Part shown: positions 12,446 to 27,604 of the stretch, one piece after another
Layout of the letters: every line of letters begins with the position of its first letter
Position numbering within the stretch: the first letter of the stretch is position 1
Assembly: GCA_017355425.1 (NCBI GenBank)
Contig: CP070233.1
Location: 2,583,501 to 2,647,500 of the forward strand
DNA length: 64,000 bases
Source of the DNA: Dolichospermum sp. DET69
GTDB taxonomy: Bacteria > Cyanobacteriota > Cyanobacteriia > Cyanobacteriales > Nostocaceae
Reading direction: 5' to 3'
The notes under the pieces: generated by a model
Told to the model about the DNA's origin: nothing
The model's input: the letters and a program-made list of their open reading frames with translations, nothing else
Database searches by the model: none
Program-made: the position numbers and the translations under genes

Positions 12446-12663
12446 ATGCAAGATACCCTAACTATTACAATTAATCCAGAACTAAAAGCAGCACTTTTAT
12501 AAATTAAATTACTCAAGCTGAAGGTATATCTCCTGATAGTTTCATTGGTAAAGCTATTGAGGATTACATCTTTACCCACAAATTCCGCGCATTGCGTTCT
12601 TATTTAATGGAAAAGAGTCAAACAGTTTATACCGATGAGGAAATTTTTGAGATAATTTCATGA
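12446..12663 (+). pseudogene. Frameshifted antitoxin gene (VapB/RHH type)
   Basis: Translation from the ATG gives MQDTLTITINPELKAALL and then a stop at 12500. In another frame from about 12508 it continues ITQAEGISPDSFIGKAIEDY and ends YTDEEIFEIIS at 12663. Joined, the two parts form a normal 70-residue ribbon-helix-helix-like antitoxin; the joint needs a small insertion or deletion. Its stop overlaps the start of a PIN-type toxin fragment (ATGA), the usual layout of vapBC-like pairs. Confidence 0.65.
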
Positions 12664-12746
12664 AGCTAGTTCTAGATACTAATGTTCTGATTCAGAAAAT
12701 ATTAGACAGAGTTTTCTCAATACATAGTTATTCAGCGAGTATTTGA
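12660..12746 (+). pseudogene. Truncated PIN-domain toxin (VapC-like)
   Basis: The frame begins MKLVLDTNVLI, the start of a PIN-domain RNase toxin with its first acidic residue (Asp6). After codon 11 (at 12693) it runs straight into the repeated sequence that precedes every Rpn gene of the array, then stops. The rest of the toxin is missing. So the left end of the Rpn array was joined inside this toxin gene. Confidence 0.7.
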
Positions 12747-12771
12747 TTAAAATAATCTTGGAGGAGTAGTT

Positions 12772-13668
12772 ATGTCCGCAAAATACTTTAATCCTTATAC
12801 AGATTTCGGTTTTAAGAAACTGTTCGGAGAAGAGGGTAGTAAAGATTTACTCATTGATTTTCTCAACCAACTTCTACCAATACATCATCAAATTCAACAA
12901 TTAACCTTTAAAAATCCAGAAAATCTAGCCGATACCATAGCAGAACGTAAAGCCATATTTGATATTTACTGCGAAAGTAAAACTGGTGATAAGTTTATTG
13001 TGGAAATGCAAAAAGCAAAAATCAAACATTTCAAAGATAGAGCCTTATTCTATTCCACATTCCCCATTCGTGAACAATCAGAAAAAGGCGATTGGAATTT
13101 CTTTTTACTACCCGTCTATTTTATCGCCATTTTAGATTTCGAGTATGACGAAAATACAACATCTAAATTTAGGCGCGATGTATGTCTAAAAGATCAAGAT
13201 GGTGATATTTTCTTTGATAAGTTAAACTTTAAATTTTTACAAATGCCATTATTCAATAAACAGGAAAATGAATTAATAACGCATTTTGATAAATGGCTGT
13301 ATTTTTTGAAGAACCTAGAAAGTTTTAATCATATACCCGCGATATTAAATGAACCAATATTTCAGAAAGGGTTTGAAATAGCGGAAATATCTCACTTAAA
13401 TGTGGAGCAGTATGAACAATATAAGAAGAGTTTAGTGCAGTATTTAGAAGTGAAAAATGTATTTGATACAGCCTTTGAGGAAGGTGAAAAGGTCGGTATT
13501 GAGAAGGGGATTGAGAGGGGTATTGAGAAGGGGATTGAGAGGGGTATTGAGAAGGGTATTGAGAAGGGTATTGAGAAGGTTGCCAAAGCATTGAAAGAGC
13601 AAAATATAGCTATAGAAATTATTGCAGAATCAACTGGTTTATCTTATGAAGCTATTAAAAGAATTTAA
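12772..13668 (+). CDS. Rpn-family PD-(D/E)XK nuclease, array copy 1 (seven tetrads)
   Basis: A 298-residue member of the Rpn/PDDEXK_2 family (recombination-promoting nuclease, often labelled putative transposase). The N-terminal motif YFNPYTDFGFKKLFG is typical. The nuclease core is Asp64 with Glu78-x-Gln80 (KAIFDIY and VEMQKAK). From residue 242 there are seven four-residue repeats (GIEK or GIER, 13495-13578), then a 29-residue helix-turn-helix-like tail starting VAKALKEQNIAIE. Family work in E. coli shows that Rpn genes act as phage-defence toxins, and that a short C-terminal product translated from within the gene blocks the full-length toxin. Unique to this copy: GIER units and Ala190. 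The Shine-Dalgarno site GGAGGAG is strong. The cassette lacks the possible promoter present before copies 2-7. Confidence 0.9.
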   Translation: MSAKYFNPYTDFGFKKLFGEEGSKDLLIDFLNQLLPIHHQIQQLTFKNPENLADTIAERKAIFDIYCESKTGDKFIVEMQKAKIKHFKDRALFYSTFPIREQSEKGDWNFFLLPVYFIAILDFEYDENTTSKFRRDVCLKDQDGDIFFDKLNFKFLQMPLFNKQENELITHFDKWLYFLKNLESFNHIPAILNEPIFQKGFEIAEISHLNVEQYEQYKKSLVQYLEVKNVFDTAFEEGEKVGIEKGIERGIEKGIERGIEKGIEKGIEKVAKALKEQNIAIEIIAESTGLSYEAIKRI

Positions 13669-13793
13669 GCGAATTATACCAATTGATAGACTTGCGCCCA
13701 TTTTTTGTACTATACAGAAAATATTAGACAGAGTTTTCTAAATACATAGTTATTCAGCGAGTATTTCATTAAAATAATCTTGGAGGAGTAGTT
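13669..13793 (+). promoter_or_regulatory. Type A spacer of the Rpn array (also before copies 3 and 7)
   Basis: The 125-bp spacer contains GACTTG, 16 bases, then TATACA, a weak promoter candidate, and ends with GGAGGAG five bases before the ATG. The same form precedes copy 3 (14679-14803) and copy 7 (18581-18705). Copy 1 has only the right half. No terminator is evident, so read-through along the array is likely. Confidence 0.4.
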
Positions 13794-14678
13794 ATGTCCG
13801 CAAAATACTTTAATCCTTATACAGATTTCGGTTTTAAGAAACTGTTCGGAGAAGAAGGCAGTAAAGATTTACTCATTGATTTTCTCAACCAACTTCTACC
13901 AATACATCATCAAATTCAACAATTAACCTTTAAAAATCCGGAAAATCTAGCTGATACCATAGCAGAACGTAAAGCCATATTTGATATTTACTGCGAAAGT
14001 AAAACTGGTGATAAGTTTATTGTGGAAATGCAAAAAGCAAAAATCAAGCATTTCAAAGATAGAGCCTTATTCTATTCCACATTCCCCATTCGTGAACAAT
14101 CAGAAAAAGGCGATTGGAATTTCTTTTTACTACCCGTCTATTTTATCGCCATTTTAGATTTCGAGTATGACGAAAATACAACATCTAAATTTAGGCGCGA
14201 TGTATGTCTAAAAGATCAAGATGGTGATATTTTCTTTGATAAGTTAAACTTTAAATTTTTACAAATGCCATTATTTAATAAACAAGAAAATGAATTAATA
14301 ACACATTTCGATAAATGGCTGTATTTTTTGAAGAACTTAGAAAGTTTTAATCATATACCCGTGATATTAAATGAACCAATATTTCAGAAAGGGTTTGAAA
14401 TAGCGGAAATATCTCACCTAAACGTGGAGCAGTATGAACAATATAAGAAGAGTTTAGTCCAGTATTTAGAAGTGAAAAATGTATTTGATACAGCCTTTGA
14501 AGAAGGTGAGAAGGTCGGTATTGAGAAGGGTATTGAGAAGGGTATTGAAAAGGGCATTGAGAAGGGTATTGAGAAAGGTATTGAGAAGGTTGCCAAAGCA
14601 TTGAAAGAGCAAAATATAGCTATAGAAATTATTGCAGAATCAACTGGTTTATCTTATGAAGCTATTAAAAGAATTTAA
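13794..14678 (+). CDS. Rpn-family nuclease, array copy 2 (six tetrads)
   Basis: A 294-residue copy with six GIEK tetrads (14517-14588). The nuclease part differs from copy 1 only at position 190 (Val instead of Ala); the catalytic Asp64, Glu78 and Gln80 are unchanged. Most nucleotide differences from its neighbours are silent, and they are shared with different copies at different places, as expected from gene conversion. Codon 222, a possible internal start, is GTC here and GTG in copy 1. The Shine-Dalgarno site is GGAGGAG, the strong form. Confidence 0.9.
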   Translation: MSAKYFNPYTDFGFKKLFGEEGSKDLLIDFLNQLLPIHHQIQQLTFKNPENLADTIAERKAIFDIYCESKTGDKFIVEMQKAKIKHFKDRALFYSTFPIREQSEKGDWNFFLLPVYFIAILDFEYDENTTSKFRRDVCLKDQDGDIFFDKLNFKFLQMPLFNKQENELITHFDKWLYFLKNLESFNHIPVILNEPIFQKGFEIAEISHLNVEQYEQYKKSLVQYLEVKNVFDTAFEEGEKVGIEKGIEKGIEKGIEKGIEKGIEKVAKALKEQNIAIEIIAESTGLSYEAIKRI

Positions 14679-14803
14679 GCGAATTATACCAATTGATAGA
14701 CTTGCGCCCATTTTTTGTGCTATACAGAAAATATTAGACAGAGTTTTCTAAATACATAGTTATTCAGCGAGTATTTCATTAAAATAATCTTGGAGGAGTA
14801 GTT

Positions 14804-15676
14804 ATGTCCGCAAAATACTTTAATCCTTATACAGATTTCGGTTTTAAGAAACTGTTCGGAGAAGAAGGCAGTAAAGATCTACTCATTGATTTTCTCAACC
14901 AACTTCTACCAATACATCATCAAATTCAACAATTAACCTTTAAAAATCCAGAAAATCTAGCCGATACCATAGCAGAACGTAAAGCCATATTTGATATTTA
15001 CTGCGAAAGTAAAACTGGTGATAAGTTTATTGTGGAAATGCAAAAAGCAAAAATCAAACATTTCAAAGATAGAGCCTTATTCTATTCCACATTCCCCATT
15101 CGTGAACAATCAGAAAAAGGCGATTGGAATTTCTTTTTACTACCCGTCTATTTTATCGCCATTTTAGATTTCGAGTATGACGAAAATACAACATCTAAAT
15201 TTAGGCGCGATGTATGTCTAAAAGATCAAGATGGTGATATTTTCTTTGATAAGTTAAACTTTAAATTTTTACAAATGCCATTATTTAATAAACAAGAAAA
15301 TGAATTAATAACGCATTTTGATAAATGGCTGTATTTTTTGAAGAACTTAGAAAGTTTTAATCATATACCCGTGATATTAAATGAACCAATATTTCAGAAA
15401 GGGTTTGAAATAGCGGAAATATCTCACCTAAACGTGGAGCAGTATGAACAATATAAGAAGAGTTTAGTCCAGTATTTAGAAGTGAAAAATGTATTTGATA
15501 CAGCCTTTGAAGAAGGTGAAAAAGTCGGTATTGAGAAGGGCATTGAGAAAGGTATTGAGAAGGGTATTGAGAAGGGCATTGAGAAGGTTGCCAAAGCATT
15601 GAAAGAGCAAAATATAGCTATAGAAATTATTGCAGAATCAACTGGTTTATCTTATGAAGCTATTAAAAGAATTTGA
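14804..15676 (+). CDS. Rpn-family nuclease, array copy 3 (five tetrads)
   Basis: A 290-residue copy with five GIEK tetrads (15527-15586), followed by the common 29-residue tail. Residues 1-241 match copy 2. The active-site residues are kept, so a functional nuclease is expected. It has the strong Shine-Dalgarno site. Codon 222 is GTC, as in copy 2. The 3' flank switches here to the type B spacer used before copies 4-6. Confidence 0.9.
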   Translation: MSAKYFNPYTDFGFKKLFGEEGSKDLLIDFLNQLLPIHHQIQQLTFKNPENLADTIAERKAIFDIYCESKTGDKFIVEMQKAKIKHFKDRALFYSTFPIREQSEKGDWNFFLLPVYFIAILDFEYDENTTSKFRRDVCLKDQDGDIFFDKLNFKFLQMPLFNKQENELITHFDKWLYFLKNLESFNHIPVILNEPIFQKGFEIAEISHLNVEQYEQYKKSLVQYLEVKNVFDTAFEEGEKVGIEKGIEKGIEKGIEKGIEKVAKALKEQNIAIEIIAESTGLSYEAIKRI

Positions 15677-15795
15677 GTGAATAATTCCAATTGATAGACT
15701 TGCGCTGATTTTTTGTGCTATACAGGAAATATTAGACAGAGTTTTCTAAAGTTATTCAGCGAGTATTTCATTAAAATAATCTTAGAGGAATAGTT
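15677..15795 (+). promoter_or_regulatory. Type B spacer of the Rpn array (also before copies 5 and 6)
   Basis: A 119-bp variant of the spacer: six bases (ATACAT) are missing near the middle, and the ribosome site reads AGAGGAA instead of GGAGGAG. It precedes copies 4, 5 and 6. The weaker site predicts less translation of those three copies than of 1, 2, 3 and 7. Confidence 0.45.
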
Positions 15796-16644
15796 ATGTC
15801 CGCAAAATACTTTAATCCTTATACAGATTTTGGCTTTAAGAAACTGTTCGGTGAAGAGGGTAGTAAAGATTTACTCATTGATTTTCTCAACCAACTTCTA
15901 CCAATACATCATCAAATTCAACAATTAACCTTTAAAAATCCGGAAAATCTAGCCGATACTATAGCAGAACGTAAAGCCATATTTGATATTTACTGCGAAA
16001 GTAAAACTGGTGATAAGTTTATTGTGGAAATGCAAAAAGCAAAAATCAAACATTTCAAAGATAGAGCCTTATTCTATTCCACATTCCCCATTCGTGAACA
16101 ATCAGAAAAAGGCGATTGGAATTTCTTTTTACTACCCGTCTATTTTATCGCCATTTTAGATTTCGAGTATGATGAAAATACAACATCTAAATTTAGGCGC
16201 GATGTATGTCTAAAAGATCAAGATGGTGATATTTTCTTTGATAAGTTAAACTTTAAATTTTTACAAATGCCATTATTTAATAAACAAGAAGATGAATTAA
16301 TAACGCATTTTGATAAATGGCTGTATTTTTTGAAGAACTTAGAAACTTTTAATCATATACCCGTGATATTAAATGAACCAATATTTCAGAAAGGGTTTGA
16401 AATAGCGGAAATATCTCACTTAAATGTGGAGCAGTATGAACAATATAAGAAGAGTTTAGTGCAGTATCTAGAAGTGAAAAATGTATTTGATACAGCCTTT
16501 GAAGAAGGTGAGAAGGTCGGTATTGAGAAGGGTATTGAGAAGGGTATTGAGAAGGTTGCCAAAGCATTGAAAGAGCAAAATATAGCTATAGAAATTATTG
16601 CAGAATCAACTGGTTTATCTTATGAAGCTATTAAAAGAATTTGA
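15796..16644 (+). CDS. Rpn-family nuclease, array copy 4 (three tetrads)
   Basis: A 282-residue copy with three GIEK tetrads (16519-16554). It has the only change of this kind in the array, Asn166 to Asp, and shares Thr184 with copies 5-7 (Ser184 in 1-3). The catalytic residues are intact. The Shine-Dalgarno site is the weaker AGAGGAA. This is the one place where the tetrad count is out of order: copy 4 has three and copy 5 has four. Confidence 0.9.
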   Translation: MSAKYFNPYTDFGFKKLFGEEGSKDLLIDFLNQLLPIHHQIQQLTFKNPENLADTIAERKAIFDIYCESKTGDKFIVEMQKAKIKHFKDRALFYSTFPIREQSEKGDWNFFLLPVYFIAILDFEYDENTTSKFRRDVCLKDQDGDIFFDKLNFKFLQMPLFNKQEDELITHFDKWLYFLKNLETFNHIPVILNEPIFQKGFEIAEISHLNVEQYEQYKKSLVQYLEVKNVFDTAFEEGEKVGIEKGIEKGIEKVAKALKEQNIAIEIIAESTGLSYEAIKRI

Positions 16645-16763
16645 GTGAATAATGCCAATTGATAGACTTGCGCTGATTTTTTGTGCTATACAGGAAATAT
16701 TAGACAGAGTTTTCTAAAGTTATTCAGCGAGTATTTCATTAAAATAATCTTAGAGGAATAGTT

Positions 16764-17624
16764 ATGTCCGCAAAATACTTTAATCCTTATACAGATTTTG
16801 GCTTTAAGAAACTGTTCGGTGAAGAGGGTAGTAAAGATTTACTCATTGATTTTCTCAACCAACTTCTACCAATACATCATCAAATTCAACAATTAACCTT
16901 TAAAAATCCGGAAAATCTAGCCGATACTATAGCAGAACGTAAAGCCATATTTGATATTTACTGCGAAAGTAAAACTGGTGATAAGTTTATTGTGGAAATG
17001 CAAAAAGCAAAAATCAAGCATTTCAAAGATAGAGCCTTATTCTATTCCACATTCCCCATTCGTGAACAATCAGAAAAAGGCGATTGGAATTTCTTTTTAC
17101 TACCCGTCTATTTTATCGCCATTTTAGATTTCGAGTATGACGAAAATACAACATCTAAATTTAGGCGTGATGTATGTCTAAAAGATCAAGATGGTGATAT
17201 TTTCTTTGATAAGTTAAACTTTAAATTTTTACAAATGCCATTATTTAATAAACAAGAAAATGAATTAATAACGCATTTTGATAAATGGCTGTATTTTTTG
17301 AAGAACTTAGAAACTTTTAATCATATACCCGTGATATTAAATGAACCAATATTTCAGAAAGGGTTTGAAATAGCGGAAATATCTCACTTAAATGTGGAGC
17401 AGTATGAACAATATAAGAAGAGTCTAGTGCAGTATTTAGAAGTGAAAAATGTATTTGATACAGCCTTTGAAGAAGGTGAGAAGGTCGGTATTGAGAAGGG
17501 TATTGAGAAGGGTATTGAGAAGGGCATTGAGAAGGTTGCCAAAGCATTGAAAGAGCAAAATATAGCTATAGAAATTATTGCAGAATCAACTGGTTTATCT
17601 TATGAAGCTATTAAAAGAATTTGA
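16764..17624 (+). CDS. Rpn-family nuclease, array copy 5 (four tetrads)
   Basis: A 286-residue copy with four GIEK tetrads (17487-17534). Its DNA is closest to copy 4 in the first half (TTTGGCTTTAAG, GAAGAGGGTAGT) but shares AAGCATTTC with copies 2, 6 and 7, another sign of mosaic exchange. The active site is intact. It has a type B spacer and the weaker ribosome site. Confidence 0.9.
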   Translation: MSAKYFNPYTDFGFKKLFGEEGSKDLLIDFLNQLLPIHHQIQQLTFKNPENLADTIAERKAIFDIYCESKTGDKFIVEMQKAKIKHFKDRALFYSTFPIREQSEKGDWNFFLLPVYFIAILDFEYDENTTSKFRRDVCLKDQDGDIFFDKLNFKFLQMPLFNKQENELITHFDKWLYFLKNLETFNHIPVILNEPIFQKGFEIAEISHLNVEQYEQYKKSLVQYLEVKNVFDTAFEEGEKVGIEKGIEKGIEKGIEKVAKALKEQNIAIEIIAESTGLSYEAIKRI

Positions 17625-17743
17625 GTGAATAATGCCAATTGATAGACTTGCGCTGATTTTTTGTGCTATACAGGAAATATTAGACAGAGTTTTCTAAAGT
17701 TATTCAGCGAGTATTTCATTAAAATAATCTTAGAGGAATAGTT

Positions 17744-18580
17744 ATGGCTGCAAAATACTTTAATCCTTATACAGATTTTGGCTTTAAGAAACTGTTCGGA
17801 GAAGAAGGCAGTAAAGATCTACTCATTGATTTTCTCAACCAACTTCTACCAATACATCATCAAATTCAACAATTAACCTTTAAAAATCCGGAAAATCTAG
17901 CTGATACCATAGCAGAACGTAAAGCCATATTTGATATTTATTGCGAAAGTAAAACTGGTGATAAGTTTATTGTGGAAATGCAAAAAGCAAAAATCAAGCA
18001 TTTCAAAGATAGAGCCTTATTCTATTCCACATTCCCCATTCGTGAACAATCAGAAAAAGGCGATTGGAATTTCTTTTTACTACCTGTCTATTTTATCGCC
18101 ATTTTAGATTTTGAGTATGACGAAAATACAACATCTAAATTTAGGCGCGATGTATGTCTAAAAGATCAAGATGGTGATATTTTCTTTGATAAGTTAAATT
18201 TTAAATTTTTACAAATGCCATTATTTAATAAACAAGAAAATGAATTAATAACGCATTTTGATAAATGGCTGTATTTTTTGAAGAACTTAGAAACTTTTAA
18301 TCATATACCCGTGATATTAAATGAACCAATATTTCAGAAAGGGTTTGAAATAGCGGAAATATCTCACTTAAATGTGGAGCAGTATGAACAATATAAGAAG
18401 AGTTTAGTCCAGTATTTAGAAGTGAAAAATGTATTTGATACAGCCTTTGAAGAAGGTGAGAAGGTCGGTATTGAGAAGGGTATTGAGAAGGTTGCCAAAG
18501 CATTGAAAGAGCAAAATATAGCTATAGAAATTATTGCAGAATCAACTGGTTTATCTTATGAAGCTATTAAAAGAATTTGA
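17744..18580 (+). CDS. Rpn-family nuclease, array copy 6 (two tetrads)
   Basis: A 278-residue copy with two GIEK tetrads (18467-18490). The second residue is Ala (ATGGCTGCA) where the others have Ser. The rest of the nuclease domain, including Asp64, Glu78 and Gln80, is unchanged. It has a type B spacer in front and a type A spacer behind, so a spacer switch falls between copies 6 and 7. Confidence 0.9.
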   Translation: MAAKYFNPYTDFGFKKLFGEEGSKDLLIDFLNQLLPIHHQIQQLTFKNPENLADTIAERKAIFDIYCESKTGDKFIVEMQKAKIKHFKDRALFYSTFPIREQSEKGDWNFFLLPVYFIAILDFEYDENTTSKFRRDVCLKDQDGDIFFDKLNFKFLQMPLFNKQENELITHFDKWLYFLKNLETFNHIPVILNEPIFQKGFEIAEISHLNVEQYEQYKKSLVQYLEVKNVFDTAFEEGEKVGIEKGIEKVAKALKEQNIAIEIIAESTGLSYEAIKRI

Positions 18581-18705
18581 GTGAATAATGCCAATTGATA
18601 GACTTGCGCCCATTTTTTGTGCTATACAGAAAATATTAGACAGAGTTTTCTAAATACATAGTTATTCAGCGAGTATTCCATTAAAATAATCTTGGAGGAG
18701 TAGTT

Positions 18706-19530
18706 ATGTCCGCAAAATACTTTAATCCTTATACAGATTTCGGTTTTAAGAAACTGTTCGGAGAAGAAGGCAGTAAAGATCTACTCATGGATTTTCTCAA
18801 CCAACTTCTACCAATACATCATCAAATTCAACAATTAACCTTTAAAAATCCAGAAAATCTAGCTGATACCATAGCAGAACGTAAAGCCATATTTGATATT
18901 TACTGCGAAAGTAAAACTGGTGATAAGTTTATTGTGGAAATGCAAAAAGCAAAAATCAAGCATTTCAAAGATAGAGCCTTATTCTATTCCACATTCCCCA
19001 TTCGTGAACAATCAGAAAAAGGCGATTGGAATTTCTTTTTACTACCCGTCTATTTTATCGCCATTTTAGATTTCGAGTATGACGAAAATACAACATCTAA
19101 ATTTAGGCGCGATGTATGTCTAAAAGATCAAGATGGTGATATTTTCTTTGATAAGTTAAACTTTAAATTTTTACAAATGCCATTATTTAATAAACAAGAA
19201 AATGAATTAATAACGCATTTTGATAAATGGCTGTATTTTTTGAAGAACTTAGAAACTTTTAATCATATACCCGTGATATTAAATGAACCGATATTTCAGA
19301 AAGGGTTTGAAATAGCGGAAATATCTCACTTAAATGTGGAGCAGTATGAACAATATAAGAAGAGTCTAGTGCAGTATTTAGAAGTGAAAAATGTATTTGA
19401 TACAGCCTTTGAAGAAGGTGAGAAGGCCGGTATTGAGAAGGTTGCCAAAGCATTGAAAGAGCAAAATATAGCTATAGAAATTATTGCAGAATCAACTGGC
19501 TTATCTTATGAAACTATTAAAAGAATTTGA
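18706..19530 (+). CDS. Rpn-family nuclease, array copy 7 (one tetrad)
   Basis: A 274-residue copy with a single GIEK unit (19429-19440), the shortest of the set. It has its own replacements: Ile28 to Met, Val241 to Ala just before the tetrad, and Ala to Thr in the last helix (SYETIKRI). The nuclease residues are kept. The Shine-Dalgarno site is the strong GGAGGAG. The repeated cassette ends 25 bp after its stop codon. Confidence 0.9.
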   Translation: MSAKYFNPYTDFGFKKLFGEEGSKDLLMDFLNQLLPIHHQIQQLTFKNPENLADTIAERKAIFDIYCESKTGDKFIVEMQKAKIKHFKDRALFYSTFPIREQSEKGDWNFFLLPVYFIAILDFEYDENTTSKFRRDVCLKDQDGDIFFDKLNFKFLQMPLFNKQENELITHFDKWLYFLKNLETFNHIPVILNEPIFQKGFEIAEISHLNVEQYEQYKKSLVQYLEVKNVFDTAFEEGEKAGIEKVAKALKEQNIAIEIIAESTGLSYETIKRI

Positions 19531-19788
19531 GCGAATAATGCCAATTGATAGACTTTGCGATAGCGTAAGCGCTGCTGCAAGCAGTTCGCCTAATCACCGC
19601 CGAAGAAAAACACGCGATCTCATTACCGACTTTAACCCCACGGAAGGCGATTCCTAGGAATCGCACGCACCACATCCCAAACATCACTTCACGCTTATAG
19701 TAAGCATAAATATATTGATCGTCTTAATATAAATAGTGCTGGCTACCTTTTATGCTACAACATTATGGTAAACAGATGATTAACATAT
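19531..19788. other. Right flank of the Rpn array, with an 18-bp palindrome
   Basis: The cassette sequence ends at 19555. It is followed by a dispersed GCGATAGCGTAAGCGCTGC-type repeat, relatives of which appear near 23758 and 38570, and a perfect 18-bp palindrome GCGATTCCTAGGAATCGC at 19647-19664. No gene is seen. The last 100 bp should hold the promoter of the recQ-like gene. Confidence 0.6.
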
Positions 19789-21888
19789 ATGACAAGCATA
19801 CTCAAAGAACAAGCATTATTCCTTCTGCGTCAGGCTTTGAATAACCCAACTGCTAATTTTCGTGATGGACAATGGGAAGCTGTTGAAGAATTACTACTGA
19901 ACAAATCGCGGTTACTCGTCGTTCAACGCACAGGTTGGGGAAAAAGTCTAGTTTATTTTTTAGCAACTCGCTTATTAAGAGATCAAGGTGGTGGTTGCAC
20001 TCTTTTGATTTCCCCTCTCCTAGCATTAATGCGAAACCAAATTACAGCCGCACAACGCATTGGAGTAAAAGCCGAAACAATTAACTCTAGTAATCCAGAT
20101 GATTGGAGATTTATAGAAACAAAGTTGTTAGCAAATCAAGTAGATATCCTTCTAATTTCCCCTGAAAGATTAGCTAATGAAGATTTTAGAGACAATATTC
20201 TTTTACCATTATCTCAAAAAATCGGGTTATTTGTAGTTGATGAAGCTCATTGTATTTCTGACTGGGGACATGATTTTCGTCCTGATTATCGCCGGATTGT
20301 GAGAATTTTACAAGCATTACCGCAAAATATTCCTGTTTTGACTACAACTGCTACAGCTAATAATCGAGTAGTTGATGATATTAAAACTCAATTGGGAGAA
20401 AATTTGCGTATTTCTAGAGGTGATTTAACTAGAAAAAGTTTGCGTTTACAAAACATTTATCTTCCCAGTCAAGCAGCAAGATTAGCTTGGTTAGCTCAAC
20501 ATCTGCCTCAATTACCTGGAAGTGGTATTATTTACGCATTAACTGTCCGTGATGCTCAACGAGTTGCTGATTGGTTAAAAACCCAAGATATTAATGCTAA
20601 AGCCTATTATGGGGATGTAGATCCTGAGATTCGCATAGGATTAGAAGACGAATTACTCAACAATAAAATTAAAGTATTGGTCGCAACAACAGCTTTAGGT
20701 ATGGGTTTTGATAAACCAGATTTAGGCTTTGTCATTCATTACCAAAGACCTGGTTCTGTTGTCCACTATTATCAGCAAGTAGGACGAGCAGGTAGAGCGG
20801 TGGAAACAGCCTACGGTATTCTGTTAAACGGTGATGAAGATGATGAAATTACTAACTACTTCATTAATACAGCATTTCCTCCCCAAAGACATACAGAAGA
20901 AGTATTAGCTGTAATTAATTCTGCGGAAAATGGAATTTCTGTTAACCAAATAGAACAACAAATAAATCTTTCCCAAGGACAAATTAATAAAGTTTTGAAA
21001 TTACTATCTTTGGAATTTCCCACACCAGTTACTAAGAGAAATACTAACTGGTATGCTAACCCAGTTAACTATCAAATTGATCATCAGAAAATTGCAGAAA
21101 TAACCCAAATTCGCCGAAATGAACAACAGCGAATGGCAGATTATATGCAAAGTCAAAAATGCTTAATGGCTTTTTTAGCAGCAGAATTAGATGATCCAAA
21201 TCCACAAGAATGTGGTAAATGTGCTGTATGTTTGGGTAAGCCATTATTGCCAGAAAATTTTTCCAATGAACTTGTAAATCAAGCAATTTTATATTTACGT
21301 CGTAGTAATCAAATTATTGAACCGCGCAAAAAGTGGATTAAAGAATCATTAACAAATTATGGCTTTTCTGGAAATATTAAAGAAAATTTAAGAGCAGAGG
21401 AGGGAAGAATCTTATCTCTCTGGGGTGATGCAGGTTGGGGAGAATTAGTCAAGAAAGGAAAATATCGAGATAATCATTTTGATGATGCACTTGTACAGGC
21501 TACTTTTGAGATGATTCAACGTTGGAAACCTCAAGCTTTTCCCACTTGGGTAACTTGTGTTCCTTCCTTAAATCGGCCAGAACTTGTACCTGATTTTGCG
21601 AAAAGACTTGCTGAAAAATTAGGTTTACCATTTAAACCTGTTGTCCGCAAAATTCGTCCAACACTGTTACAAAAACAGATGAATAACAGTTATCAACAAG
21701 CTCATAATTTAGATGGATCTTTTGCAATTGATTATTGGGAAGGAATGAGTGGTAATGTATTCTTAATTGATGATATAGTAGATTCCCGTTGGACTTTTAC
21801 GGTCATTGCAGCACTTTTGCGTAATGCTAGAAGTGGATTAGTTTATCCTGTAGCATTAGCTCTTAATTCATTAGGTCAATCAGATTAG
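19789..21888 (+). CDS. RecQ-family helicase fused to a phosphoribosyltransferase-like domain
   Basis: A 699-residue protein. Residues 20-350 are a RecQ helicase core: Walker A TGWGKS (48-53), DEAH (151-154), QQVGRAGRA as motif VI. A RecQ-type zinc site (KCLMAF and ECGKCAVC) follows near residues 455-480. The last 170 residues are not RecQ: they end with NVFLIDDIVDSRWTFT (656-671), the phosphate-binding signature of type I phosphoribosyltransferases (also in ComF). It is in an operon with a DprA-like gene 6 bp downstream. A phosphoribosyltransferase-domain toxin with a DprA-like antitoxin is the make-up of the ShosTA phage-defence system; here the first partner also carries a helicase. A defence role is inferred from this and from the Rpn array next door. 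Confidence 0.8.
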   Translation: MTSILKEQALFLLRQALNNPTANFRDGQWEAVEELLLNKSRLLVVQRTGWGKSLVYFLATRLLRDQGGGCTLLISPLLALMRNQITAAQRIGVKAETINSSNPDDWRFIETKLLANQVDILLISPERLANEDFRDNILLPLSQKIGLFVVDEAHCISDWGHDFRPDYRRIVRILQALPQNIPVLTTTATANNRVVDDIKTQLGENLRISRGDLTRKSLRLQNIYLPSQAARLAWLAQHLPQLPGSGIIYALTVRDAQRVADWLKTQDINAKAYYGDVDPEIRIGLEDELLNNKIKVLVATTALGMGFDKPDLGFVIHYQRPGSVVHYYQQVGRAGRAVETAYGILLNGDEDDEITNYFINTAFPPQRHTEEVLAVINSAENGISVNQIEQQINLSQGQINKVLKLLSLEFPTPVTKRNTNWYANPVNYQIDHQKIAEITQIRRNEQQRMADYMQSQKCLMAFLAAELDDPNPQECGKCAVCLGKPLLPENFSNELVNQAILYLRRSNQIIEPRKKWIKESLTNYGFSGNIKENLRAEEGRILSLWGDAGWGELVKKGKYRDNHFDDALVQATFEMIQRWKPQAFPTWVTCVPSLNRPELVPDFAKRLAEKLGLPFKPVVRKIRPTLLQKQMNNSYQQAHNLDGSFAIDYWEGMSGNVFLIDDIVDSRWTFTVIAALLRNARSGLVYPVALALNSLGQSD

Positions 21889-21894
21889 AAAATT

Positions 21895-22902
21895 ATGTTA
21901 AATCATATCCTAGCACCAGATACTCAAGCAATTTTGCTGTTGTGCGCCAGTTTTGGACAAAATCGTCAAATTGAACCCCTACCTCTGACTCTGGGTGAAT
22001 ATAACTTGTTAACAGATTGGTTGCGGGAAAATCAAATGCGTCCAGCAGATTTATTGGAAACAACAGCAAAAGCGCAGTTACAAAAAATAACTCACAATAA
22101 ACTTAACCCTGATAGGCTTTTAGCTTTATTAGAACGGGGTGCAATGTTAAGTTTTGCAGTGGAAAAATGGACAAGTCGCGGTTTATGGATATTGGGACGC
22201 AGTGACGCTAAATATCCCAAACGTTTTAAGCAAATATTGAAACATTCAGCACCAGCGATAATTTATGGGGTTGGGAATGCAGAATTATTATCTTTAGGAG
22301 GATTAGCAATTGTAGGTTCTCGTGATGTAGATGAGGATATTATTCACTACACACGCAAAGTTGCCCAAACTTGTTCTCAACAAAGCATACAAGTTATTTC
22401 TGGTGGTGCAAGAGGAATAGATCAAGAATCAATGTTAGGTATTTTGGATCATGGAGGAACGTCTATTGGTGTGTTAGCTGATAATTTGACTAAAGCAGCA
22501 GTCAATAGTAAATATCGTTCTAGTATTCAAGAAGGTAGATTAACTTTAATTTCTAGCTATGATCCTGATGCTGGTTTTAACACAGGTAATGCAATGGGAC
22601 GGAATAAATATATTTATAGTTTAGCAGATTATGCCTTAGTTGTTAATTCTACTTTTGGAAAAGGTGGAACTTGGGCTGGTGCGGTAGAAGCATTATCTAA
22701 ACTGAAAGAAATTCCTATATTTGTAAAAATGGCATCTTCAGTACCAGAAGGAAATCAGCAATTATATAATCAAGGTGCAAAACCATTTCCTTCAGACTTT
22801 GAAAATGGTGATTTGCGGGAGATGTTAACAGAAACTATAGCTAATTTTGAATCTGTAAAAAATGAAGTTAATCAAGCAGATATTCAACTTTCTTTGTTAT
22901 AA
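21895..22902 (+). CDS. DprA/Smf-like protein paired with the RecQ-PRTase gene
   Basis: A 335-residue protein with a DprA/Smf Rossmann-like core: AIVGSRDVDED at 138-148 and SGGARGID at 169-176, the binding loops of the family. The usual C-terminal winged helix of competence DprA is not seen; the tail is short and acidic. It starts 6 bp after the RecQ-PRTase stop, so the two are co-translated. DprA-like proteins serve as antitoxins or partners in ShosTA-type defence pairs. That role is more likely here than transformation, because of the neighbours and the missing domain. Confidence 0.8.
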   Translation: MLNHILAPDTQAILLLCASFGQNRQIEPLPLTLGEYNLLTDWLRENQMRPADLLETTAKAQLQKITHNKLNPDRLLALLERGAMLSFAVEKWTSRGLWILGRSDAKYPKRFKQILKHSAPAIIYGVGNAELLSLGGLAIVGSRDVDEDIIHYTRKVAQTCSQQSIQVISGGARGIDQESMLGILDHGGTSIGVLADNLTKAAVNSKYRSSIQEGRLTLISSYDPDAGFNTGNAMGRNKYIYSLADYALVVNSTFGKGGTWAGAVEALSKLKEIPIFVKMASSVPEGNQQLYNQGAKPFPSDFENGDLREMLTETIANFESVKNEVNQADIQLSLL

Positions 22903-22928: not shown

Positions 22929-23248
22929 CCTCTAATTGAAGCTTTAATTTCCTCTCATGTCATTACATTACAGCACTTCCTTTGTGTTATGAGGTACAAG
23001 AACCCCACCCCCAACCCCCTCCCCGCAAGCGATGAGGGGGCTAAGATGTACCTCATAAGAGCGGAAACCGCTGTATCTGGATTTGCTTCGTAATCAGTAA
23101 TCCGATGATCAAGTTCTCGTTTTTGCGCTGCTGTTAAATCGGGATAAGCTTATTCTGCTGCTATACTTTCTAAAATCTCTTGTACAATCTGAATTCTATC
23201 TGCAATACTCAGGGCTTTGATTTCATTTAAAGTTAAATTGATGTCCAT
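22929..23248 (-). pseudogene. Antitoxin gene broken by a stop and an inserted element
   Basis: A second copy of the antitoxin at 23311-23532, with the same start context (CAT at 23246-23248). A CAG to TAA change creates a stop where the intact gene reads AEQAYP. A 107-bp inverted-repeat element (22969-23075) splits its 3' end. It is dead, and lies just past the dprA-like gene. Confidence 0.8.
22969..23075. repeat. Fold-back element, TACAGC termini (copy 1)
   Basis: A 107-bp element with ends TACAGC and GCTGTA, internal complementary arms ATGAGGTAC/GTACCTCAT, and a hairpin around CCCCTCCCCGCAAGCGATG. It interrupts an antitoxin pseudogene, whose uninterrupted sequence is seen at 12333-12399. 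A sister copy lies at 51281-51386. Confidence 0.75.
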
Positions 23249-23310
23249 GTTAATTTACCTTAATAGGAAGATAAGGCATACATCTATTTTCTAGTGTAGG
23301 CGATCGCTCA

Positions 23311-23532
23311 TTATTTGCCTCTAATTGAAGTTTTAATTTCCTCCCATGTCATGACATCATCTGGATTTGCTTCGTAATCATTAATCCGACGATCAAGTTC
23401 TCGTTTTTGCGCTGCTGTTAAATCGGGATAAGCCTGTTCTGCTGCTATACTTCCTAAAATCTCTTGTACAATCTGAATTCTATCTGCAATACTCAGGGCT
23501 TTGATTTCATTTAAAGTTACACTGATGTCCAT
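23311..23532 (-). CDS. Addiction-module antitoxin-type protein
   Basis: A 73-residue protein opening MDISVTLNEIKALSIADRIQ and ending DVMTWEEIKTSIRGK, typical of the putative addiction-module component family (about 70 residues, unstable antitoxin type). Such proteins usually pair with a RelE-like toxin downstream; none is seen here, so this is an orphan. Two damaged copies of the same gene lie at 22929-23248 and 12333-12399. Confidence 0.75.
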   Translation of the reverse strand: MDISVTLNEIKALSIADRIQIVQEILGSIAAEQAYPDLTAAQKRELDRRINDYEANPDDVMTWEEIKTSIRGK

Positions 23533-24177: not shown

Positions 24178-25719
24178 ATGCCCTTATCCCGCATAGTTAC
24201 ACTGATTGTTGGCCTGATCGTCATTTTGGCGTTAACCCTATGGCTAATTGATTCTCTCTCCCGGCTTTACTGGCAGTTGTCCTATTCGCCATTGTTAGGT
24301 AATTTACTGTTATTACTGCTAGTTTTACTGATTGGTGGTTTAATTGCTGCTTTTGTTTATTATGTCTTGGTGCTGCGGAAAGGAGAGGAAAAATCCCGTC
24401 GGCAACGTCCCAGGGTGACTGCTGCCCAAATCCCTGCGGCTAAATCCGATGCAGCTTCTTCGACTTTGCAAGCTGTCCGTCAACAAGTAGCCCAAATTCA
24501 AGATGAAGTCACCCGTCAAGCTTTATTGAGTCGCACTAAGGAAATTGAGGCAAATTTAGCTAGAGGTGAGATTCAAGTTGTGGTTTTTGGCACAGGGAGT
24601 GCTGGAAAAACTTCTCTGGTCAATGCCATTATGGGGCGGATAGTTGGTGAAGTCAATGCGCCAATGGGAACAACTCAGGTAGGAGAAACCTATTGTTTAC
24701 GCTTGAAGGGTTTGGAACGGAAAATATTAATTACTGATACTCCAGGGATTTTAGAACCAGGGGTAGCGGGTACGGAACGGGAACAACTGGCCAGGGCTTT
24801 AGCGACGGAAGCGGATTTATTGTTATTTGTGGTAGATAATGATTTACGCCGTTCTGAATATGAACCATTGCGGGGTTTAGCGGAAATTGGCAAGCGATCG
24901 CTTTTAGTTCTCAATAAAACAGATTTATACACAGAGACTGATATAGAATCCATCTTGGCCAGATTGCGGGAACGAGTTCGGGGTTTTATTGCTACTAATG
25001 ATGTGGTAGCGATCGCTGCTAATCCCCAAATAGCACAATTAGAAACCGGCGAAACTTTCCAACCAGAAGCCGATATTATCCCCCTACTACGACGCATGGC
25101 TTCTATTTTACGCGCCGAAGGTGAAGACCTGGTAGCAGATAATATTCTCTTACAATCTCTGCGTTTAGGAGAAGAAGCCCGCAAACTGATAGACTCTCAG
25201 CGTCGCCGTCAAGCTGATAAAATTGTTGACCGTTATCAATGGATTGGTGCAGGCGTAGTTTCTGTCACCCCATTACCGATGGTAGACTTACTGGCAACCG
25301 CTGCCGTTAATGCCCAAATGGTCGTAGAAATTGGTAGACTCTACGGTTGTGATTTAAACATGGAACGGGGCAAGGAATTAGCCCTATCTTTAGGTAAAAC
25401 CATTGCCGGGTTAGGTATCGTTAAAGGGGCAATTGAATTATTATCAACGGCTTTACAACTGAATGTGGCTACTTTTATTGTAGGGAGAGCAATTCAAGGG
25501 GTGACAGCCGCATATTTAACCCGGATTGCCGGGAAAAGCTTTATTGAATATTTTCGTCATGATCAAGATTGGGGTGATGGGGGAATGACAGAAGTAGTGC
25601 AACAACAATTTCAAATTAATCGTCGAGATGAGTTTATCAAAGTTTTTATTCAAGAAGCGATCGCTAAAGTCGTAAAACCATTAACTGATACTTTTGCAGA
25701 AAAAGAAGATCATAAGTAA
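24178..25719 (+). CDS. Membrane-anchored GTPase with DUF697 domain
   Basis: A 513-residue protein. Two membrane helices at the N-terminus (about 5-25 and 40-66) precede a GTPase domain with P-loop GTGSAGKT (138-145), DTPG (187-190) and NKTD (246-249), which gives guanine specificity. The C-terminal 180 residues match DUF697, a hydrophobic domain found after Era-like GTPases. Such proteins are widespread in cyanobacteria; the role is unknown, perhaps in membrane organisation. Two HIP1 sites lie inside. It is a single gene. Confidence 0.8.
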   Translation: MPLSRIVTLIVGLIVILALTLWLIDSLSRLYWQLSYSPLLGNLLLLLLVLLIGGLIAAFVYYVLVLRKGEEKSRRQRPRVTAAQIPAAKSDAASSTLQAVRQQVAQIQDEVTRQALLSRTKEIEANLARGEIQVVVFGTGSAGKTSLVNAIMGRIVGEVNAPMGTTQVGETYCLRLKGLERKILITDTPGILEPGVAGTEREQLARALATEADLLLFVVDNDLRRSEYEPLRGLAEIGKRSLLVLNKTDLYTETDIESILARLRERVRGFIATNDVVAIAANPQIAQLETGETFQPEADIIPLLRRMASILRAEGEDLVADNILLQSLRLGEEARKLIDSQRRRQADKIVDRYQWIGAGVVSVTPLPMVDLLATAAVNAQMVVEIGRLYGCDLNMERGKELALSLGKTIAGLGIVKGAIELLSTALQLNVATFIVGRAIQGVTAAYLTRIAGKSFIEYFRHDQDWGDGGMTEVVQQQFQINRRDEFIKVFIQEAIAKVVKPLTDTFAEKEDHK

Positions 25720-25831
25720 AAATACTGGAATTATTATGAAATATTTCACATACTGAATTATTGTCTAGAATTCCGGAAAATAGCAGCCGATGTCAGAAAA
25801 GATATATAAGGATTTCTGAGTAATTAGGATC

Positions 25832-27604
25832 ATGAACAACCAGATGATCGGCAAAGTATTACAAGAGCGTTACCAAATTGTTCAACCACTTAGCAGCGGA
25901 GTGTTTGGACAAACATTTATCGCTATGGATATGTACCACCCAGAAAAACCTAGATATGTTGTCAAACAACTCAAGGTTAATAACTATCAATCTACCTCTT
26001 ATTTTGACTACCTCAGATTGCGGTTTTTAACAGAGACTGAAACCCTTAAACATTTAGGTCGTCATCCCCAAATTCCTGAACTGATTAACTGCTTTGAAGA
26101 AAATGAACGTTTTTATTTAGTCCAAGAATTTATTCCTGGAGAGTCTTTAGCAGCGGAATTACCAAGTAGCCCCCAAAGTCGAGGTAAGTGGAGTGAAATT
26201 GATGTGATCAAGTTTCTAGAAGATGCTCTATCTATTCTGGAATTTGTTCATTCTCAAGGCTTTATTCATTGCGATATTAAACCAGAAAATTTAATTAGAC
26301 GAGCTATAGATGCCAGATTAGTATTAATTGATTTTGGCTCAATTCAACCAATAGACTTTAGTATTGAAACAGAATTTTTCATAGATCAAATTCCTGTCAC
26401 ATCCTTGGGTTATATTCCTCCAGAACAATTCATTGGACAAACTCAACCCAATAGTGACCTGTATTCCTTGGGAATAATTGCGATTCAAGCTATTACAGGA
26501 CTTTTACCTCTGCAATTAGAAATTGATGCTGAAACTAATGAAATTATCTGGTGTGATGATGATACACATATTAATGATTATTTAGTTGCTTTCTTAAATC
26601 AAATGATCCGTTATCACCATCAGGAACGGTTTCAATCTGCTCATGAAGCACTATGGGTACTTAAGCATATAGAATGGGAAAATAACCCAGCAGAAATACA
26701 AATAGCCGAGTCTCAATTATCTTATAAAACTAATGAAAATACATATCAAAAATCACAACCACTACTAGCAGGATTGCGGTTAGGTTTATTGGTTAATTCC
26801 GTGCTGCTAGGATTGGGAGTATATTCTTTATTTAATAATTCGCAAGCTTACTCAGCTACAGAAACTTTATATAAAGCCATAGCCAGATATCAATCTGGAG
26901 ATCTACAAAAAGCGATTAATTTAGCTCGGTCAATCCCGCTTGATAGTAATGTTTATCCAGAAGCTCAAGCCTCAATTGAAGAATGGCAAAAACAATGGCA
27001 ACAAGAAGCAGCACATTATATTTTAGCTGAAAAAGCTCTCAAAGAAAGTCGGTGGACAGATGTATTATCTCATGCTCCTAAAGCTCCAATTAATTCCTAT
27101 TGGCAATCAAAAATCCAGCCCCTAGTTAAACAAGCAAAAGTAAATATTGAAGCACAAACACAAGCTTTATTAGCAAAAGCTTATGCAAAAGCCGAAGAGA
27201 GAGATTTCTCAACAGCTTTATATTACTTACAACAAATACCAGAAGAAAGCTCCGCTGGTGCTATGGTTAAACAGAAATTAGCTGAATACAATCAAAAACG
27301 TCAAGTTAGATCAGGATACTATTTATATCAGGCACACAATCAAGCATCTGTAGGTGACTTTTTTGGAGCTATTAAACTCCTCGAAAGAGTTCCCAAAGAT
27401 ACTCATGTCTATGCACAAGCAAAAGTTAAACTACAAGAATATGCCCAAAAATTGCGTTTACGTGATCAACAACAAGAATTAGCTACACTAAAAACAGTTC
27501 CCCTTGCTGAAGGGCAACACACACATACTGAAAAAAACACCATTCAGCGGAGAGTATCTTTTCAACCAGAAGATTATTTACAGGAAGTAAATATTCGTAA
27601 TTAA
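25832..27604 (+). CDS. Serine/threonine protein kinase with membrane span and helical repeats
   Basis: A 590-residue Hanks-type kinase. It has the glycine-rich loop LSSGVFGQTF (20-29), ATP-binding Lys45, catalytic loop HCDIKPEN (146-153) and DFG at 167-169. The residue before the catalytic Asp is Cys, so this is a non-RD kinase that may not need activation-loop phosphorylation. A membrane helix lies at 313-334. The C-terminal 250 residues are tetratricopeptide-like helical repeats on the other side of the membrane, probably a sensor. It is followed by sigF on the same strand, 212 bp away; a functional link is possible but not shown. Confidence 0.9.
   Translation: MNNQMIGKVLQERYQIVQPLSSGVFGQTFIAMDMYHPEKPRYVVKQLKVNNYQSTSYFDYLRLRFLTETETLKHLGRHPQIPELINCFEENERFYLVQEFIPGESLAAELPSSPQSRGKWSEIDVIKFLEDALSILEFVHSQGFIHCDIKPENLIRRAIDARLVLIDFGSIQPIDFSIETEFFIDQIPVTSLGYIPPEQFIGQTQPNSDLYSLGIIAIQAITGLLPLQLEIDAETNEIIWCDDDTHINDYLVAFLNQMIRYHHQERFQSAHEALWVLKHIEWENNPAEIQIAESQLSYKTNENTYQKSQPLLAGLRLGLLVNSVLLGLGVYSLFNNSQAYSATETLYKAIARYQSGDLQKAINLARSIPLDSNVYPEAQASIEEWQKQWQQEAAHYILAEKALKESRWTDVLSHAPKAPINSYWQSKIQPLVKQAKVNIEAQTQALLAKAYAKAEERDFSTALYYLQQIPEESSAGAMVKQKLAEYNQKRQVRSGYYLYQAHNQASVGDFFGAIKLLERVPKDTHVYAQAKVKLQEYAQKLRLRDQQQELATLKTVPLAEGQHTHTEKNTIQRRVSFQPEDYLQEVNIRN

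Follow-up and report, generated by a model that had tools for sequence, protein, structure and literature searches.

The window, i.e. the whole 64,000-nucleotide stretch of DNA analysed, contains at positions 12772-19530 seven Rpn-family nuclease genes arranged head-to-tail on the + strand, all in frame and with ATG starts (Table 1). Each carries an uninterrupted series of four-residue GIE(K/R) units, and in gene order the series comprise 7, 6, 5, 3, 4, 2 and 1 units, with each number present once. An initial annotation of this DNA had reported seven such genes with these unit numbers, and proteins of seven lengths from 274 to 298 aa, and both points are borne out by the open reading frames and repeat counts. 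The span it gave, 12693-19555, encloses the array with a margin of about 80 nt on the upstream side and 25 nt on the downstream side. The unit corresponds to 12 nt of DNA, which in the window array is mostly GGTATTGAGAAG, with few third-position variants; among the seven copies GIER units are confined to copy 1, which has two.

Table 1. Features of the array and its surroundings, in window positions
Feature	Position	Strand	Remarks
Apparent antitoxin/toxin pieces	12449-12700		upstream of copy 1
rpn copy 1	12772-13668	+	298 aa; 7 units, repeat 13495-13578; units 2 and 4 are GIER; PF12784 at 216.1 bits
Antisense open frame (example)	13325-13591	-	frames of 60-88 aa opposite each repeat
Intergenic spacer (example)	13669-13793	+	spacers about 120-125 nt
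rpn copy 2	13794-14678	+	294 aa; 6 units, repeat 14517-14588
rpn copy 3	14804-15676	+	290 aa; 5 units, repeat 15527-15586
rpn copy 4	15796-16644	+	282 aa; 3 units, repeat 16519-16554
rpn copy 5	16764-17624	+	286 aa; 4 units, repeat 17487-17534
rpn copy 6	17744-18580	+	278 aa; 2 units, repeat 18467-18490
rpn copy 7	18706-19530	+	274 aa; 1 unit, repeat 19429-19440; Ala before the repeat instead of Val
PsyrT and PsyrA matches	19789-22902		directly downstream of the array
Recurring stretches	23075-23500		
DUF697/GTPase gene and a further gene	24178-27604		

Every spacer has an SD-like GGAGGAG or GAGGAAT at its 3′ end before the ATG, and the spacers are of two sequence types, one before copies 4, 5 and 6 and the other before the remaining copies. 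Copy 5 is the nearest sister of copy 4, with 6 differences outside the repeat, and over the 21 pairs of copies the differences outside the repeat are mainly synonymous (280 against 48 nonsynonymous, pN/pS 0.040); the array copies are under purifying selection. The host genome, 6.04 Mb over two contigs, has no matches to PF12784 (PDDEXK_2) other than these seven. A promoter scan gave 9 hits compared with 34.3 in shuffles, i.e. fewer, and no terminator was found. The mechanical listing of open reading frames also holds minus-strand frames opposite each repeat (Table 1); their presence opposite each copy is expected because of the repeat and the high identity between copies.

Assignment to the Rpn family, also made in the earlier description, is confirmed by matches to two profiles. 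TIGR01784 (the Rpn family), the scan for which covered copies 1 and 7 (2/7), matched these at 127.6 and 113.2 bits against a curated cut-off of 52.1, over positions 2-273 of the 273 in the model, and the PF12784 nuclease domain is above cut-off over the full profile length in all seven copies. Residues D64, E78, Q80 and K81 of the nuclease core, which we take to be the catalytic ones, are present in all seven copies and in 22/22 full-length same-genus copies, and are invariant in 38 aligned proteins. The array proteins have a C-terminal domain with the RpnS fold, the repeats being in its first helix. For copies 1 and 7, a Pfam scan at E 0.001 gave PF12784 only and no match to PF04754 (YhgA-like Transposase_31). 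Comparison of a full-length structure model with PDB by Foldseek yielded no match at E 0.001 (the best, at 0.11, was EcoO109I), and phmmer against PDB yielded nothing at E 1. Hits of copy 1 to NCBIfam FliH and PADLOC C3a178 were set aside as low-complexity matches because both cover its repeat region.

Among the PMC literature found, RpnL/RpnS is treated in its own right by PMC10327210 alone. That paper describes a C-terminal short form of E. coli Rpn that blocks the toxic long form, and repeats in the first helix whose number varies between strains. With RpnC, one repeat added to either the short or the long form abolishes inhibition, which returns when both forms carry the addition. RpnP2 gives protection from some phages, and rpn arrays formed by tandem duplication, as well as number-dependent inhibition, are mentioned (PMC10327210). 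The likeness of the array proteins to E. coli RpnA-E and RpnP2, with their RpnL/RpnS gene-within-gene toxin-antitoxin (PMC10327210; PDB 7TH0), lies in the combination of a PD-(D/E)XK nuclease with a C-terminal three-helix domain, in first-helix four-residue repeats of variable number and in the existence of stand-alone rpnS genes. However, E. coli Rpn belongs to Pfam family PF04754 whereas the array proteins match PF12784, the array consists of near-identical paralogs with no shared number, and the stand-alone short genes considered below mismatch their neighbours. A different type of parallel is with EcoR124I and EcoR124II, where the number of a four-residue repeat (TAEL) also sets specificity, though there, as cited in PMC10327210, it is via the spacing between DNA half-sites and with two variants, whereas here there are up to seven numbers per genome and, by analogy with Rpn, the helix would be a protein-protein one.

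Matches were present in 21 of the 60 genomes searched for relatives. Same-genus arrays have, in gene order, 2,1,5,4,3 units (G005), 4,5,3,2,6,1 (G010), 3,4,1 (G008) and 1,3 (G012), with G005, G008 and G010 each being assembled in 1-2 contigs. Single copies have 1 unit in G003 and G011, 2 in G004, 3 in G002, 4 in G006 and 5 in G009, and 5/15 same-genus relatives (G001, G007, G013, G014 and G015) gave no match. In G008 the 4-unit copy (L049 6046-7772, minus strand) is broken in its nuclease part with the C-terminal part still open. Repeat number is thus variable between homologs, from 1 to 7 in the genus and from 1 to 4 in nine Pseudanabaena-type loci. Judged from upstream DNA, the window and 10 of the 13 relative loci examined have a chromosomal site in common, and, as the same-genus arrays are at one orthologous locus, their genomes are not independent draws. 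The earlier proposal that variants are kept side by side in one genome holds, with seven copies and seven numbers, and duplicate counts in related strains, checked as a possible refutation, are absent from the arrays of same-genus relatives.

With 29 copies from 11 genomes, a repeat number is shared by 0/50 within-genome pairs as against 59/356 between-genome pairs, counts that retain the broken 4-unit G008 copy, a G004 copy with an N run and a G009 copy cut by a contig end, and that exclude, from G002, a 1-unit fragment lying at a contig edge (C71) and, from G017 and G009 (C161), genes of 47-48% identity. When the numbers were shuffled over copies, arrays without any duplicate were obtained in 0 of 1,000,000 shuffles, in 331 when the window was removed, and in 504 with full-length genes only. 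If every count from 1 to 7 were equally likely, seven values would all differ with P 0.006, and the five arrays would be free of duplicates with a probability of 2 in 100,000. The duplicate-free arrays in the window genome and its relatives suggest that repeat number is an identity tag keeping copies apart. An artefact of assembly or counting, or chance, is hardly credible as the source: tandem repeats are error-prone, and several relatives are drafts with arrays cut by contig ends (G002, G009) or containing an N run (G004), but the pattern is found in four genomes of 1-2 contigs (G000, which is the window genome, G005, G008 and G010), and the window-free shuffles just given argue against it as well. 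Assembly error in particular is unlikely because the host genome is in 2 contigs, there are SNPs all along the copies, and arrays occur in three other 1-2 contig genomes. The arrangement is real, unusual, and within a known family.

The initial annotation had described an ordered ladder without duplicates, of which the absence of duplicates stands, given the 0/50 pairs, and the order does not. The window order is near-monotone rather than strictly so, with 3 standing before 4 (at most one inversion in either direction, P 0.0028), and is peculiar to this genome, G005, G010 and G008 being unordered; conserved order was therefore rejected. A possible but unlikely alternative is that mutation alone builds the ladder, with duplication or early slippage shifting the 12-nt repeat by one unit, so that neighbours would differ from the outset, and selection only keeping the frame. 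When duplication and slippage were simulated neutrally, with 300 runs for each setting and numbers from 1 to 8, no more than 3%, 10% and 24% of runs gave all-different arrays of 7, 6 and 5, and the orders in G005 and G010 are scrambled yet duplicate-free. Neighbours are nonetheless one unit apart in 10/17 steps, compared with 5.6 expected (P 0.017; for relatives alone 6/11, P 0.14), as mutation alone would have it, and in keeping with this the closest pair within the genome is one unit apart in G000 (3/4) and G010 (4/5), but 1/4 in G005; in G000, copies further apart in number are also more divergent (Mantel r 0.43, P 0.027), and near pairs from other taxa show the repeat to be a mutational hot spot. 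Single-copy relatives, on the other hand, keep their number: the nine Pseudanabaena-type loci have 2,3,3,3,3,3,4,1,3 units, i.e. 3 in 6/9, so that single copies tend to keep one number. We infer that selection, beyond mutation alone, keeps the numbers different.

In the nuclease-domain tree of the 22 full-length copies (4/19 inner branches well supported), grouping by genome requires 8 changes, the minimum possible (shuffled mean 13.9), and grouping by number 15, while the C-terminal tree, from the parts around the repeat, is grouped by neither genome (15 changes; 30/200 shuffles as low) nor number (16). The repeat DNA is identical in 3 of the 28 cross-genome same-number pairs with two or more units, these being the 5-unit repeats of G000/G010, the 4-unit repeats of G005/G006 and the 3-unit repeats of G000/G002. 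The five-unit repeat of G005 consists of five identical GGTATTGAGAAA, and that of G000 is a mixed series. Copy 3 of the window is identical to G010 copy 2 over its repeat and 60 nt on each side (120 nt around it), and their first 600 nt differ at 12 sites. From the grouping of nuclease domains by genome and the mere 3/28 identical repeats, it follows that the numbers mostly arose separately, with the three identical pairs indicating some shared history or exchange. An inherited set, in which there was one ancestral all-different array whose nuclease parts were later homogenised by gene conversion, the absence of duplicates then being a single old event, is quite improbable. It would accommodate the presence of all arrays at one locus and the three identical pairs, but is at odds with the differing repeat DNA of the other 25/28 pairs, with a number that is not conserved by position, and with two trees neither of which groups by number.

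The preferred reading, with a probability of roughly 0.6, is of a tandem array of RpnL-type genes in which GIEK number would serve as an identity tag, with redundancy avoided so as to keep every copy insulated from the others. The tag itself would be formed by the units that the RpnS-like C-terminal domain carries in its first helix. If the E. coli RpnC rule is applied, this region would pair toxin with inhibitor, a one-unit difference would break the pairing, and each number would mark an insulated unit, with the seven copies amounting to seven such units; pruning of redundant copies, or diversifying selection, would then account for the lack of duplicates. Number-specific pairing is made plausible by the RpnC experiment with one added repeat (PMC10327210), and by extension the same pairing rule presumably holds in this array. 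New copies would come from tandem duplication at the one chromosomal site, and a duplicate with the same number, being redundant, would be lost or shifted by 12-nt slippage, so that arrays would settle on non-repeating small integers. Some copies have shed their nuclease part and would survive as stand-alone genes of inhibitor type.

Five nuclease-less short genes (RpnS-like), with the start and C-terminal domain kept, are present in relatives, G005 and G010 among them. Their numbers match those of close full-length copies in their own genome in 0/16 comparisons, against about 2.7 predicted from the between-genome rate; taken alone, this mismatch is weak evidence. With mismatched numbers the short genes should not silence the full-length copies alongside, and, if the RpnC rule holds, they would have to avoid the numbers of resident nucleases. 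The mismatch also raises the question of immunity to foreign Rpn nucleases, and a speculative and rather doubtful extension is that diversifying selection acts on the number as an integer-coded compatibility tag, with each cell having an Rpn nuclease set free of repeated numbers and with short genes of otherwise absent numbers providing immunity to non-self Rpn nucleases, whether from incoming elements or neighbours. A tblastn search of 50,697 phage records with an RpnS-like query had no match at E 0.01, and the 8 pattern matches obtained when viral contigs were scanned with copy 7 include no relative; with none in either set, phage- or virus-borne inhibitors as the driver were rejected. Plasmid relatives (142 records) are all under 60% identity. 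As to a C-terminal product made from within the full-length genes, in-frame ATG158, TTG179 and GTG211 are kept in 22/22 full-length same-genus copies and GTG227 in 21/22, but the candidate starts GTG211 and GTG227 are without a good SD, and the lowest synonymous-diversity window was reached by 126-290 of 500 shuffles, a constraint that is not significant; by codon conservation, SD and synonymous diversity in the 22 copies, no internal start is convincing.

Beyond the genus, PF12784 genes of Pseudanabaena and Methylococcales have the same kind of repeat and are about 90-95% (Pseudanabaena) and 63-78% (Methylococcales) identical to copy 7, but, unlike the array, are mostly single or dispersed, sometimes being in pairs; Pseudanabaena G439 has a nuclease-less short gene of its own, as do same-genus relatives. 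In other cyanobacteria and gamma-proteobacteria, near pairs were taken where two matches stood close among the matches listed, which is a sample rather than a full census, and of the 17 so obtained from 15 loci, 15 differ in length, 8 of these 15 through one indel whose length is a multiple of 12 nt. The two of equal length are L240 (G454) and copies 2 and 3 of L169 (G287), at 95% and 98% identity, so that the pattern is not universal outside the genus and a universal no-duplicate law was rejected. Non-redundant numbers are strong in this genus, and common but not universal elsewhere. L169 (4761-7791) itself comprises three Rpn-type genes next to one another, of a different C-terminal type, copy 1 being longer than copies 2 and 3. 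In a Bacteroidia sample PF12784 was present in 16/119 genomes, with no adjacent pair among the loci examined. A further genome, G590 (that of L131), has 42 TIGR01784 matches, of which many are frames of about 60-140 aa with the C-terminal part only, so that stand-alone RpnS-like genes may be common there.

Three things are new: repeat numbers without redundancy, the return of this pattern in relatives, and short genes whose numbers do not match. Titles and abstracts found in PMC describe no non-redundant repeat-number array; the array figure of PMC10327210, SI Fig. S1B, may show repeat numbers. Earlier work (PMC10327210) had number varying between strains and one extra repeat breaking pairing in one protein; here there are up to seven nearly isogenic nucleases per genome, differing mainly in repeat number with none reused. 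On the more speculative reading of a compatibility tag, the locus would be a natural orthogonal toxin/inhibitor set differing in little but helix length, and counting helix turns would be a simple protein-level route to many orthogonal pairs. The array is in any event a ready-made set for a direct test of what drives repeat-number change, a specificity code or not.

The neighbourhood of the array has features of its own. Directly downstream, PADLOC identifies matches to PsyrT (699 aa, E 2e-303) and PsyrA (335 aa, E 5e-128), PsyrTA being an anti-phage toxin-antitoxin pair; among the relative loci examined this neighbour is shared with G002 only, at 98.5% over 3440 nt. Upstream of copy 1, pieces that by eye resemble a vapB-type antitoxin with a frameshift and the N-terminal beginning of a PIN-type toxin (MKLVLDTNVLI) are cut off at the array start. 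Farther downstream are a DUF697/GTPase gene, weakly matching LeoA, and a further gene with a strong match to the PD-T4-6 kinase. Between these and the PsyrTA matches, the stretches at 23075-23500 are found again close to the array in most relatives examined, often twice per locus, and may represent a small mobile repeat.
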